Below the pieces are notes generated by a model. The model made no database searches, was not told the DNA's origin, and saw only the letters and a program-made list of their open reading frames with translations. Shown one piece after another: positions 6,707 through 11,791 of a stretch of DNA of 34,864 bases (positions are counted from its first letter, which is position 1; each line of letters starts with the position of its first letter). The DNA lies in assembly GCA_015231435.1 (NCBI GenBank), contig JADGBN010000020.1, positions 1 through 34,864 on the forward strand, in the 5' to 3' direction. A program made the translations under genes and the position numbers. The DNA comes from Gammaproteobacteria bacterium (GTDB lineage Bacteria > Pseudomonadota > Gammaproteobacteria > Thiohalomonadales > Thiohalomonadaceae).

Positions 6707-6951
6707 CAGGGTATAGCCTCATCATATAGCGCCGCCACATCAGCCTTCATTGTGATGTACCGCGCCGGGGTTTTAAAACGTTAAAAACCGGAGTTTAAAA
6801 CAGGGGAGCTGCCTCTTTTACAGGGGTGCGCGATTTTACCAATTTAGCAGAAAACTGCAAGCTTCAGAGCTATTTTGGCTGATAATAGCGCGCTCGCACT
6901 CCAGCCATAAGCGTGGTAATCTTTTCGCAACGTCAACCCGAAGGTAATCAC

Positions 6952-7422
6952 ATGACACCATTCACACCCCAGCTACGCTCTGTCACTCGCATGGTCATTT
7001 CAGGGTTTCTGCTTTTTTTGTCGCTATCCCCAATTACTTATGCCAAGGATATGGATGGTCGCCATGCCGTCTATGCCGTTGGCGGCGAGAGCTGCACCCC
7101 CTATATGCAGGCTCGGCGTCAGGGGGGGGAGATTATGGAGCGCTATAACCATTTTATTCTTGGCTATCTCACCGCTTTTAATCTAATTGTCGAAAATACC
7201 CATAACATTCTGGGTGACAAGGGGTACGCCAAGGCACTCGCCTGGCTCGACGGCTTCTGCCAGATTAATCCCAAAGAGAACTTCACCACCGCCATCGCCA
7301 CGATGACCGAAATCTTCTACAGCGAACGTGCGAACTTTGCTGACGATCCCAATCGCCCCTTCTTCTCCAACTCCACGGCGGACAATATTATGGGAAGAAA
7401 GATGCCGCCGCCCAATCAATAG
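6952..7422 (+). CDS. Small exported protein, Rap1a/Tai-like
   Basis: The product is a 156-residue periplasmic or secreted protein. It has a signal peptide (basic ...LRSVTRMV, hydrophobic ISGFLLFLSLSPITYA, cleavage about residue 31). The mature part contains two cysteines (GESCTPY and DGFCQINP) that could form a disulfide, and a central YLTAFNLI... AWLDGFC pattern like that of the Rap1a/Tai immunity-protein superfamily: Gly-x-Leu-x-x-x-Asn, then a Trp-Leu-x-x-x-Cys helix. I chose the ATG with GAAGG 7 bases upstream; an in-frame GTG 13 codons earlier lacks such a site and would spoil the signal peptide. No T6SS effector or other immunity gene is next to it, so an immunity role is unproven. Its stop lies 7 bases from the end of the convergent PII gene. 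Confidence 0.6.
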   Translation: MTPFTPQLRSVTRMVISGFLLFLSLSPITYAKDMDGRHAVYAVGGESCTPYMQARRQGGEIMERYNHFILGYLTAFNLIVENTHNILGDKGYAKALAWLDGFCQINPKENFTTAIATMTEIFYSERANFADDPNRPFFSNSTADNIMGRKMPPPNQ

Positions 7423-7429
7423 CGTCCCG

Positions 7430-7786
7430 TTACAGCAGCTCTTCCGCCAGATCGGGCAGCGCGAACAGGGTCGCCGCAGAGGCTTTTTGCATATAGATAA
7501 TGCCGCCATGGGGACGATTGATCTCGGCTGCGTGATAGATCTTGGTAAAAATTTCATCGGCACGATCCTCAGGCACCACTGCGGTGACCACCTCGCGCTC
7601 TGAAGTCTCGCCAATACCGCGATACTGCATTGGCGTCATCTTGCCAACCCCACGGGCGAAGTGCACATCAACCCCGGTGATCCCACACTCCTGCACGAGA
7701 AAGCGCATGAGTGCTGCGGCCCGCCCTTTCGGCAGTACGGCGGTAATCACACGATGCGGCGGTATGGAGTCTGTTGAGTTAAACAT
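7430..7786 (-). CDS. PII-like signalling protein (second of a pair)
   Basis: At 118 residues, the protein has the PII ferredoxin-like fold pattern: strand RVITAVLPKGRAAALMRFL, then VDVHFARGVG, the second half REVVTAVVPEDRADEIFTKIYHAA, and GGIIYMQ near the end. The T-loop is short (KMTPMQYRGIGETSE) and lacks the classic uridylylated tyrosine context of GlnB/GlnK, so it is not a standard nitrogen PII. It is the last gene of the operon, 11 bases after the other PII-like gene, with AGGA upstream of the ATG. PII trimers bind nucleotides and gate a partner; by position the likely partner is the DUF1538 membrane protein. The ligand is not deducible from the sequence. Confidence 0.8.
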   Translation of the reverse strand: MFNSTDSIPPHRVITAVLPKGRAAALMRFLVQECGITGVDVHFARGVGKMTPMQYRGIGETSEREVVTAVVPEDRADEIFTKIYHAAEINRPHGGIIYMQKASAATLFALPDLAEELL

Positions 7787-7797
7787 TTGCAGAGTTC

Positions 7798-8157
7798 CTA
7801 CTGTGACAACTTTTCGACCAACTCAGGAGGAACAAAGGTCGCTGCTTTCTCCAGCGGCGTCACCCACATAATCCCCATTCCCGGGGTATCCAGCTTGGCT
7901 TCAAGGTAGATGCGCTCAAATATGCGGCCAACCTGCTCGCTGGAGACGAGAATATTAATCACCTCTTTCTCTGCCTCAATTGCCAACCCCAAAATACCCA
8001 GGCGCTCGCGCACGCCCCGCCCATAGGCATAATGCACAGTGGCCCCCTGCGCCCCCGCCATCTGCGCGGCTTTAACCAAATCGTCAGCCATCCCCCGCTG
8101 CACAACCGCAGTGATTAGCATAACGTCGGTTAGAACAACAATTTCACGGGTTTTCAC
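7798..8157 (-). CDS. PII-like signalling protein (first of a pair)
   Basis: This 119-residue protein has the PII core: TDVMLITAVVQRGMADDLVKAA, ATVHYAYGRGVRER, KEVINILVSSEQVGRIFERIYLEAKL and GMGIMWVTPLE. It differs clearly from its downstream neighbour, so the two are ancient paralogues, not a recent duplication. The T-loop is short (VRERLGILGLAIEA) and without the GlnB/GlnK tyrosine. It starts with GTG overlapping the stop of the DUF1538 gene by four bases (GTGA), with GGGAG upstream. That coupling implies stoichiometric production with the membrane protein. It might form homotrimers, or hetero-oligomers with the second PII; the sequence does not say. Confidence 0.82.
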   Translation of the reverse strand: MKTREIVVLTDVMLITAVVQRGMADDLVKAAQMAGAQGATVHYAYGRGVRERLGILGLAIEAEKEVINILVSSEQVGRIFERIYLEAKLDTPGMGIMWVTPLEKAATFVPPELVEKLSQ

Positions 8158-9908
8158 GACACGACTCCCTCAGCTTGTAGTGACTCATCATAGTGGCGAT
8201 GTTTGCGTGCCACCTTCCAGTTAATCCACAGGCCGGTCATGAGCACTGAAAGAATAGGGCAGATTGAGGCCATTGCCAAAACGCCGAACCCCTCTACCGC
8301 CGCCACTGCGTGGCCAAACCCCAACCCCATGGAGAGCACCAAAGGGACGGTTATCGGCCCCGTGGTCACGCCGGCACTATCCCAAGCGATATTCACAAAC
8401 TCTTCACTGGAGAAGATGGTTAACAACAACGCCAGCAGGTAGAGCGGCAACAGCAGCAGTGCAAGGTCAAGCGTAAAAACGATTTTCGCAACCCCTAGGG
8501 CAATCCCTACAGCAACCCCTAAAGAGACGGCAATCATTAAAAGGGAGCGACGAAACGCCCCGTTGGTCAAATTTTCCACCGTCAGCCCCAGGGCATTTAA
8601 CGCAGGTTCTGCCAAAGTAGCGCCAAAACCTAATATCCAGGCAAAACCGATTGCCAACGTCAAGCCAAAAAAGGTACCGTAAAGCGGCGAGCCCATCACC
8701 GCATCGATATTGGTAAACGCAGCCGGTACCAGCCCCCCTGACTGCCCTCCCAGCTTCGCCAAACCATAGGTCAGACCTAAATTAAAAATGATCATCCCCA
8801 GCACCGCAAGCGTAATTCCGTAAGCGATATAACCGGGGTTATGCAGCCGCTCTTTTAACAGCACCCGCAGCACCAAATAGAGAAATATCACCAGCGGTAC
8901 GATTGCCTGCAGTCCGGCGATAATCTCTAATGCCGGGGATAGCTCATACCACATCGGCAGCGTGGTTAGCTGTGAAACTCCCGCCGCCTCGGCAATAATC
9001 GCTTCCGGTGTCGTCACCAGTGATAACCACACGGCGAGAAGCTCCACACCTAATATGGGAAATATCGATGCTAGGGTGACAATACCGAATCCCGACAGGG
9101 ATGATTGCCCCTGCCCTGCTGCAGCGGCAATGCCAATACCTAACGCGAGCACCAGCGGTACAGTGACCGGCCCAGTGGTCACCGCGCCGCAGTCCCAGGC
9201 CAACCCCAGCACACTATTGAGATGGGGATCGAGCCACAAATAGAGGGAGAGCAGCAGCGTGGGAATAATGGTGATAAAGATAAGTGGTTTGAGACTCCAG
9301 CCATAGATAAAACGCAGGGTGCCGATAATCGCAGCCGCACCGACGCCAATACCGACCACCAGTACCAGTGTCCCGGCCCAACCATTCAGCAAGGCATAAA
9401 GATAGGGCGCATTCTCTACCTCGACAATCTGCCCTGCGGTGCGCAGTGCGCCAATCGCCGGTTCTGCAAAAGTGACGCCAATGCCAAGCAGAAAAACGAT
9501 TAACAACACCAGGCGTAGCGATGCCTTTGCCGGCAGGGTATTTCCCAGCACCTCGCCAAAGGGCATCAGACCAACCTTAAGCCCCTCCATAAAGAACATT
9601 AAACCGACAATAACCGCCACGATTCCGGCGCTAATCACCCACGACTCGGCAAGCCCCTGACGCAAAATAAGTAGCTGAAAAAGCACCAGATAGAGCGCCA
9701 ACGGCACCACTGCTTTTAACTGTTCAACAAAGCGCACCGTCACATAGGGTCGTATCATGCGATAGGCATCCAGACGGCGCAGCTGAATTTTAGGCGCCAG
9801 ATAGGTTGCATCGCCACTTACCGATGGCATTAGGCGATTAGCGCTAATGCACTTCTGGTGCAGCGTCACTTCATGCACAAAATCACCGAAACGGATCTCA
9901 ACGGCCAT
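8154..9908 (-). CDS. DUF1538 membrane protein with an internal duplication
   Basis: The 584-residue polytopic membrane protein is built from two homologous halves. Each half holds an AEPAI/AEPAL motif (148-152, 433-437) and a second signature, AWDCGAVTTGPVTVPLVL (237-254) in the first half and AWDSAGVTTGPITVPLVL (508-525) in the second. Each signature is followed by a Gly-rich helix and a conserved FG-I/V-x-x-x-ASI-x-PIL stretch. A soluble N-terminal ~60 residues precede the first membrane span. The paired-repeat design and conserved polar motifs inside membrane segments suggest a transporter or channel with inverted or parallel repeats, but the substrate is unknown. It heads an operon with two PII-like genes. 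There is no clear ribosome-binding site at the ATG. It is a DUF1538 family member by motif; any function is inference. Confidence 0.85.
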   Translation of the reverse strand: MAVEIRFGDFVHEVTLHQKCISANRLMPSVSGDATYLAPKIQLRRLDAYRMIRPYVTVRFVEQLKAVVPLALYLVLFQLLILRQGLAESWVISAGIVAVIVGLMFFMEGLKVGLMPFGEVLGNTLPAKASLRLVLLIVFLLGIGVTFAEPAIGALRTAGQIVEVENAPYLYALLNGWAGTLVLVVGIGVGAAAIIGTLRFIYGWSLKPLIFITIIPTLLLSLYLWLDPHLNSVLGLAWDCGAVTTGPVTVPLVLALGIGIAAAAGQGQSSLSGFGIVTLASIFPILGVELLAVWLSLVTTPEAIIAEAAGVSQLTTLPMWYELSPALEIIAGLQAIVPLVIFLYLVLRVLLKERLHNPGYIAYGITLAVLGMIIFNLGLTYGLAKLGGQSGGLVPAAFTNIDAVMGSPLYGTFFGLTLAIGFAWILGFGATLAEPALNALGLTVENLTNGAFRRSLLMIAVSLGVAVGIALGVAKIVFTLDLALLLLPLYLLALLLTIFSSEEFVNIAWDSAGVTTGPITVPLVLSMGLGFGHAVAAVEGFGVLAMASICPILSVLMTGLWINWKVARKHRHYDESLQAEGVVS

Positions 9909-10156: not shown

Positions 10157-11791
10157 ATGAGTGACCATCAACAACTGGAACAGCTTGAGCGTTTAACCGA
10201 AATTGGCATTGCGCTATCGGCAGAAAAAAATACGCCACGACTGTTGGAGATGATTCTTCTTGGTGCCAAGGCGATCTCCAATGCCGATGGCGGTACGCTC
10301 TACTCAGTGACTGAAGATAACCACATTAAAATGGAGATTGTCCGAACTGACTCGCTTAATTTCGCCATGGGTGGAACCACAGGAAAGAAGATCCCGTTTC
10401 CGGCAATCCCCATTTACGATGAAGATGGTCTTCCCAACAGCCATATGGTGGTCTGTAATGCGGTACTGAACGACTGCACCCTAAACATCCCCGACGCCTA
10501 CAATACAGAGGGCTTTGATTTCTCTGGCACCAAAAAATTTGATAACAACACCGGCTACCGATCCCAGTCGTTTCTTACGGTACCGATGAAAAATCATGAG
10601 GGTGATATTATCGGCGTGTTACAACTCCTCAATGCGACCGATGCAAGGACAGGAGAGGTTATCCCCTTCTCGCAGGAGTCACAGCGACTCACCGAATCGC
10701 TCGCCTCCCTCGCTGCCATTGCCCTCACCAACCGTCGCCTTATTGATGATTTGAAGCGACTGCTCGAATCCTTAATCCAGCTTATTGCCACCGCCATTGA
10801 CGAAAAATCACCCTATACCGCCGGTCACTGTGAACGCGTACCGATTCTGACGATGATGATCGCCGACGCGGCCAACGCCTGCAACGAGGGGCCGTTTGCC
10901 AAGTTTCACATGAGTGACGATGACTTTTATGAGCTGCGTATTGCCGCTTGGTTACACGACTGCGGCAAAATCACCACCCCCGAACATGTGGTTGATAAAG
11001 CGACCAAGTTACAAACTATTTTTGACCGTGTCGAGATGGTTGAAACCCGCTTTGATGTGCTTAAACACCAGGCGCGTATTGCGCTTCTTGAAGAGCGTCT
11101 GCGCATTATCGAGTCTGCTGCCAGTGATGCTGAAAAAGCAGCGGCCGTTGCCGTTAGCGAGGCAACCTATGAAAAAGCGATAGCAGACCTTGATGATGAT
11201 CTCGCCTTTATCATAAAAACAAACAGCGGCGGTGAATTTATGCATCAAGCCGATCAGGAGCGGATACGGATAATTGGTCAGCGACAGCTGCATCTTGCTA
11301 GCGGCAGCAGATCACTGTTAAATGATGATGAGATCTACAACCTCACCATTAGCAAAGGGACGCTCACCCCTGAAGAGCGGGAGATCATTAATAACCATAT
11401 TGTCGCGACGATTAAGATGCTAGAGTCACTCCCCTTCCCCAAACACCTTAGCCATGTCCCTGAATATGCCGGGGGGCACCATGAAAGAATGGATGGCAAG
11501 GGCTACCCCAAAGGGCTGACGGGGGAACAGATGTCACTGCAAGCCCGCTTTATGGCAGTCGCCGATGTTTTTGAGGCACTTACCGCCGTTGACCGCCCCT
11601 ATAAAGATGGTAAAACCCTCACGGAGTCACTAAAAATTCTCGGCTTTATGAAAAAAGAGAACCATATCGACCCCGATGTTTTCGATCTTTTCATTCGCCA
11701 GCGCATCTATCTAAAATACGCCGAAGCAAATATGTCTGCCAAGCAGATTGATAATGTTGACCACAGTAAAATCCCCGGCTACATTGAGTAG
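10157..11791 (+). CDS. GAF-HD-GYP cyclic-di-GMP phosphodiesterase with a coiled-coil insertion
   Basis: Predicted to hydrolyse cyclic di-GMP in the cytoplasm. Residues ~10-195 are a GAF sensor domain (DGGTLYSV, KKFDNNTGYRSQSFLTVPM, GVLQLLNA; the KKFDNN resembles the NKFDE motif of cyclic-nucleotide GAFs). The HD-GYP domain starts near 205 with SPYTAGHCERVP, then WLHDCGKITTPEHV (His267-Asp268), HHERMDGKGYP (His441 to Pro451) and ADVFEALTAVDRPYK. The metal and GYP residues are all present. Between HDCGK and HHE lie ~174 residues instead of about 60: residues ~285-400, Ala/Glu-rich and partly coiled-coil, are inserted before the conserved GTLTPEEREIINNH. No membrane segment is present. The methyltransferase gene begins 6 bases after the stop, so they are probably co-transcribed. 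Confidence 0.92.
   Translation: MSDHQQLEQLERLTEIGIALSAEKNTPRLLEMILLGAKAISNADGGTLYSVTEDNHIKMEIVRTDSLNFAMGGTTGKKIPFPAIPIYDEDGLPNSHMVVCNAVLNDCTLNIPDAYNTEGFDFSGTKKFDNNTGYRSQSFLTVPMKNHEGDIIGVLQLLNATDARTGEVIPFSQESQRLTESLASLAAIALTNRRLIDDLKRLLESLIQLIATAIDEKSPYTAGHCERVPILTMMIADAANACNEGPFAKFHMSDDDFYELRIAAWLHDCGKITTPEHVVDKATKLQTIFDRVEMVETRFDVLKHQARIALLEERLRIIESAASDAEKAAAVAVSEATYEKAIADLDDDLAFIIKTNSGGEFMHQADQERIRIIGQRQLHLASGSRSLLNDDEIYNLTISKGTLTPEEREIINNHIVATIKMLESLPFPKHLSHVPEYAGGHHERMDGKGYPKGLTGEQMSLQARFMAVADVFEALTAVDRPYKDGKTLTESLKILGFMKKENHIDPDVFDLFIRQRIYLKYAEANMSAKQIDNVDHSKIPGYIE

Follow-up and report, generated by a model that had tools for sequence, protein, structure and literature searches.

The locus raises the question of why a duplicated membrane protein should share an operon with two different PII-like proteins, and whether these control it. 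In the window, the whole stretch of 34,864 nucleotides analyzed here, three minus-strand open reading frames follow one another in the order DUF1538 protein, PII-1, PII-2. The first (8154..9908, minus strand) encodes a fused UmpAB-type DUF1538 membrane protein of 584 amino acids with two homologous halves of seven transmembrane helices (TM) each, an assignment based on PF07556, the UmpA/UmpB models and a structure model. PII-1, the putative core PII partner (7798..8157, minus strand, 119 amino acids), starts with GTG, and PII-2, a divergent PII-fold protein (7430..7786, minus strand, 118 amino acids), starts with ATG. The coordinates agree with the first-pass annotation, which had described a GTGA overlap and a second, divergent PII gene 11 bases on: the PII-1 start and the transporter stop share the four bases GTGA, PII-2 follows PII-1 with a spacing of 11 bases, and its PII fold is supported below. 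Beyond PII-2, a small, apparently exported protein without a Pfam match (6913-7422) is encoded convergently to the cassette, its gene lying 7 bases from that of PII-2, and a divergent GAF/HD-GYP gene (10157-11791) lies upstream; GAF-type signalling genes stand beside the cassette in the window and in a few other loci only (L020, L030, L036, L043).

The membrane protein matches PF07556 (DUF1538) with 342.8 bits against a cut-off of 22.6 (E = 7.5e-103) in two stretches, and each half carries one copy of the motif, AWDCGAVTTGPVTVP in the first (9156..9200, minus strand; invariant D239, T244 and T245) and AWDSAGVTTGPITVP in the second (8343..8387, minus strand; invariant D510, T515 and T516), in line with the duplication proposed earlier. 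The halves match in turn the NCBIfam models UmpA (NF041627, 197.3 bits) and UmpB (NF041628, 154.1 bits), suggesting that the protein corresponds to a fused UmpA-UmpB, with scores that do not reach the equivalog cut-offs of 490 and 500 bits. The structure model (pLDDT 81, pTM 0.81) is consistent with seven membrane helices per half and has helix breaks at TFAEPA and at VTTGP, and a PDB fold search with this model gave no significant match (the best with E = 0.099 and a TM-score of about 0.15). The charge distribution would fit cytoplasmic N and C termini and an inverted second half. About 60 residues precede TM1 as a predicted cytoplasmic extension (9729..9908, minus strand), which the fused window-type subfamily shares and split UmpA lacks.

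Contrary to the first-pass annotation, which took the substrate to be not established, a transport activity is known for one DUF1538 pair: the split UmpAB of Halomonas zhaodongensis was shown in 2017 to be a heterodimeric, pH-dependent Na+(Li+,K+)/H+ antiporter, which functioned in E. coli although its PII was not supplied (PMC5484666). UmpAB resembles the window protein in its two DUF1538 halves of 7 TMs each and its invariant AEP and D...VTT motifs, and differs from it in being encoded by split genes, whereas the window protein is fused and carries the N-terminal extension; a text search of the UmpAB paper (PMC5484666) found no mention of PII. Across 308 halves from all DUF1538 classes, E149, P150, D239, T244 and T245 (numbered as in the window protein) are conserved almost without exception. 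Since the halves of the window class are only about 32% identical to UmpAB-type halves, cation/proton exchange by the window protein is likely rather than established, and we infer a cation substrate for the fused subfamily. The low identity, together with the failed UmpA/UmpB cut-offs, also means that the substrate of this subfamily may differ, in which case the same design would serve to carry, for instance, a metal or an anion, and the need for it would be what the PIIs report. Such a substrate would be in keeping with the change of the motif from TTST/TTSE to TTGP, with the missing PDB fold match, with a FeoB-type gene that follows in one relative (L225) and with the nutrients carried by most known PII-gated transporters; we nevertheless consider it unlikely, as both DUF1538 classes keep the acidic and Thr-Thr residues of the motif without variation and no substrate-specific gene is conserved in the cassette flanks.

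Turning to the PII proteins, PII-1 scores 38.1 bits against PF00543, above the cut-off of 25, and PII-2 scores 22.2 bits, just below it. A profile built from 50 PII-2 homologues matches PDB PII chains (best E = 3.4e-5), and the 50 best PDB matches of the predicted PII-2 structure (pLDDT 86) are all PII/GlnK chains (Foldseek, best E = 3.6e-7), placing the modelled protein in the PII fold despite its sub-cut-off Pfam score. The core glycines G35, G37 and G89 and the equivalent of GlnB Lys58 are kept in 79/79 PII-1 sequences. At the position of GlnB Tyr51 there is a gap in all 79 PII-1 sequences and mostly Gly, Glu or Lys in PII-2; the Lys90 position is occupied by F/I/M in PII-1 and by I/L/V in PII-2, that of Gln39 by Arg in 78 of 79 PII-1 sequences, and Arg101 and Arg103 are conserved in neither protein, the alignment past residue 96 being less certain. 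Both PIIs thus lack the canonical GlnB/GlnK features, that is, the ATP-phosphate residues Lys90, Arg101 and Arg103 and a Tyr51 in a long T-loop. In GlnK, ATP and 2-oxoglutarate are held by the residues compared here, and Tyr51 is the uridylylation site (PMC8395244); given these changes, it is unlikely, as far as sequence can tell, that the cassette PIIs read the canonical nitrogen signal. The earlier suggestion that the ligand may not be nitrogen-related is thereby strengthened, and the description of short T-loops unlike those of GlnB/GlnK stands in part, namely for PII-1.

Two separate canonical PIIs are encoded elsewhere in this genome, indicating that the cassette pair is an addition to them and not a replacement; a read-out via the ordinary nitrogen PIIs was set aside on the same ground. 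Cyclic di-AMP, the ligand in a PstA kind of system, was rejected as a general ligand because diadenylate cyclase (PF02457) was missing from this genome, which is 94% complete, and from 10 of 14 further genomes that carry the cassette.

To what extent the three genes belong together was apparent from a genome scan that yielded 80 relatives, of which 77 are informative loci, the contigs of L036, L067 and L071 ending too early. PII-1 and then PII-2 follow the transporter in the same order in 76 of the 77, implying that the arrangement is not due to chance, and in 53 of the 77 complete cassettes, window included, the overlap between transporter and PII-1 measures exactly four bases. This close cassette family comprises about 67 distinct sequences, and its carriers include Thiothrix, Thiocapsa, Thiocystis, Sulfurimonas, Pseudomonas and Nitrospira, together with metagenome bins that are unclassified and in part perhaps wrongly binned. 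In the reverse direction, a PII-2 profile run over 398 Pseudomonadota genomes gave about 30 strong matches, each beside PII-1, with the fused DUF1538 transporter also adjoining wherever the contig is long enough; PII-2 was not strongly found in these genomes outside the neighbourhood of PII-1. No other flanking gene is conserved, the best case reaching 9 of 80 loci.

The association extends to the wider family. DUF1538 occurs in 111 of the 398 Pseudomonadota genomes, and a PII gene adjoins it, split or fused, in 53 of 56 distinct Pseudomonadota loci from 55 genomes, a sample of the best-scoring matches that favours the split and 520-aa forms, the window form being sampled separately. Of the 11 DUF1538 genomes in the phylum of a Nitrospira relative, 10 have an adjacent PII, and the eleventh (G515) has a lone, apparently incomplete umpA. 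The possibility that homologues usually lack PII neighbours, which the first-pass annotation had named as speaking against its proposal, was checked and is false for both the close loci and the Pseudomonadota sample. Since several phyla keep transporter and PIIs together, the two co-encoded sensors very probably control the transporter, to judge from gene arrangement.

Alternatively, the PIIs might make no contact with the transporter and carry its signal to another target, a transcription factor or an enzyme. Canonical PIIs have many targets, and the PII genes lie apart from the transporter in the four exceptional genomes that were followed up (those of L062, L147, L148 and L156). In all four, the matching PII was found on another contig: PII-1 and PII-2 for L062, PII-CBS for two and PII for the last, showing that linkage with the transporter can be lost while the PII itself is kept. 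The 4-base overlaps, the near-universal linkage, the persistence of the exact cognate PII in genomes that have lost the linkage, and the lack of a third conserved gene all argue against a separate target, which we regard as improbable.

Comparison of DUF1538 operons distinguishes PII-1 from PII-2. Four architectures were found, namely umpA-umpB-PII-CBS, umpA-umpB-PII, the window form, and a fused protein of about 520 aa followed by PII-CBS, so that the second slot after DUF1538-PII is taken by a CBS-domain protein, a second PII or neither. One umpA-umpB-PII-CBS operon (G000 contig C212, locus L090, 6008-8386) belongs to the window's own genome, as its second DUF1538 operon; like the window cassette it combines DUF1538 and PII, and unlike it the operon has split subunits, a single PII and, in the place of PII-2, a CBS-domain protein. 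Two loci in the phylum of the Nitrospira relative (L208 and L212) have the fused transporter and PII-1 without PII-2, and in L208 a FeoB-type gene follows PII-1. At L225 (478-4485), fused DUF1538 and PII-1 are succeeded by an overlapping FeoB-type GTPase transporter gene that replaces PII-2. Because some relatives have PII-1 alone, or PII with a CBS protein, PII-2 is nonessential to the design; the proposal of a transporter or channel under two dedicated PII sensors thus holds with respect to a transporter with dedicated PIIs, whose PII neighbours are near-universal, and has to be relaxed with respect to the second sensor. L208 also carries the N-terminal extension, indicating that the extension is not specific to PII-2.

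Control of transporters by PII proteins has been described for GlnK acting on AmtB and SbtB acting on SbtA (PMC8395244, PMC10117731), and the cassette shows the arrangement of these systems, with transporter and PII conserved in one operon. GlnK-AmtB likewise pairs a transporter with a co-encoded PII that controls it, but the transporter there is an ammonium channel and the PII a single canonical ATP/2-oxoglutarate protein with a long T-loop and Tyr51. SbtB is a non-canonical PII encoded directly after its membrane transporter, as in the window, but that system comprises a bicarbonate/Na+ symporter and one PII, with adenine-nucleotide and redox control. A precedent for two tandem PIIs on one target is NifI1/NifI2 (PMC6429469, PMC8395244), where two divergent PII genes also stand one after the other within their target's operon; that target is nitrogenase rather than a membrane protein.

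Starting from the directly established gene content, order, conservation, PII fold and transporter family, we consider it probable that the window encodes a cation/proton antiporter together with dedicated PIIs that gate it and are probably not nitrogen sensors, with PII-1 as the core partner and PII-2 added. Antiporter and sensors would form one unit, consisting of a 14-TM antiporter of fused UmpAB (DUF1538) subunits and two PII-fold proteins made with it. PII-1 would be co-produced by translational coupling and, by analogy with GlnK-AmtB and SbtB-SbtA, would dock on the cytoplasmic face of the transporter, with the fused subfamily's N-terminal extension as a candidate site; a small molecule held by PII-1 would then set transport up or down. 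As UmpAB worked in E. coli without PII, the PII would be at most a modulator of transport and would not enable it. In most fused systems of the window type, PII-2 would add a second input, occupying the slot given to a CBS-domain protein in other DUF1538 operons. The CBS-domain family often binds adenosine nucleotides. That either CBS or PII-2 takes the second slot suggests two combined inputs, and the signal would probably be related to energy state or to ions and pH rather than to 2-oxoglutarate.

PII-2 probably either joins PII-1 in a mixed oligomer or acts as a second layer, and a heteromeric PII, as put forward in the first-pass annotation, is plausible. That the two proteins form separate homotrimers, a sub-question within the preferred antiporter reading and not exclusive of it, is somewhat short of an even chance: PII-1 is found without PII-2 (L208, L212) and a tandem PII-2/PII-2 fusion exists in nature (L060), while every strong PII-2 match has an adjoining PII-1 and the pair stays intact even away from the transporter (L198). 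PII-2 changes fastest, with a mean pairwise identity of 34% compared with 56% for PII-1 and 62% for the transporter, and it is more variable than PII-1 at aligned PII positions; like PII-1, it has neither Lys90 nor Tyr51. The divergence of both runs parallel to that of the transporter, most closely for PII-2 (Mantel r 0.82, against 0.72 for PII-1). Partners inherited together would be expected to behave in this way, and shared descent alone also gives such a correlation. In L060 (8142-8885), the two naturally fused PII-2 domains occupy one 247-aa frame after PII-1; among the relatives this was the only fusion seen, and none joined PII to DUF1538.

PII proteins are familiar chiefly for sensing nitrogen and carbon. 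Among the open papers searched, just five name DUF1538, and no report of a DUF1538-PII link was found in titles or abstracts of the open literature on PII and antiporters or on the PII superfamily. Tentatively, and with less than even confidence, the data can be extended to a cation/proton antiporter family in several phyla that is directly controlled by dedicated non-nitrogen PIIs, which in the fused subfamily would form a heteromer of the two PIIs. If this were true, PII signalling would govern ion and pH homeostasis, and a near-universal partnership between PII and Na+(K+)/H+ antiporters would extend the role of PII to ion and pH control. Such a partnership would also open a first way into the regulation of DUF1538 transporters, and PII-1 with PII-2 or CBS would offer a simple two-sensor system for studying signal combination. 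Rearranged loci were also observed: L064 (1-4572) has a tandem pair of fused DUF1538-PII cassettes, of which one contains a single PII and the other two, and at L204/L213 (G429 contig C97) three DUF1538 genes stand in a row ahead of PII and CBS genes.
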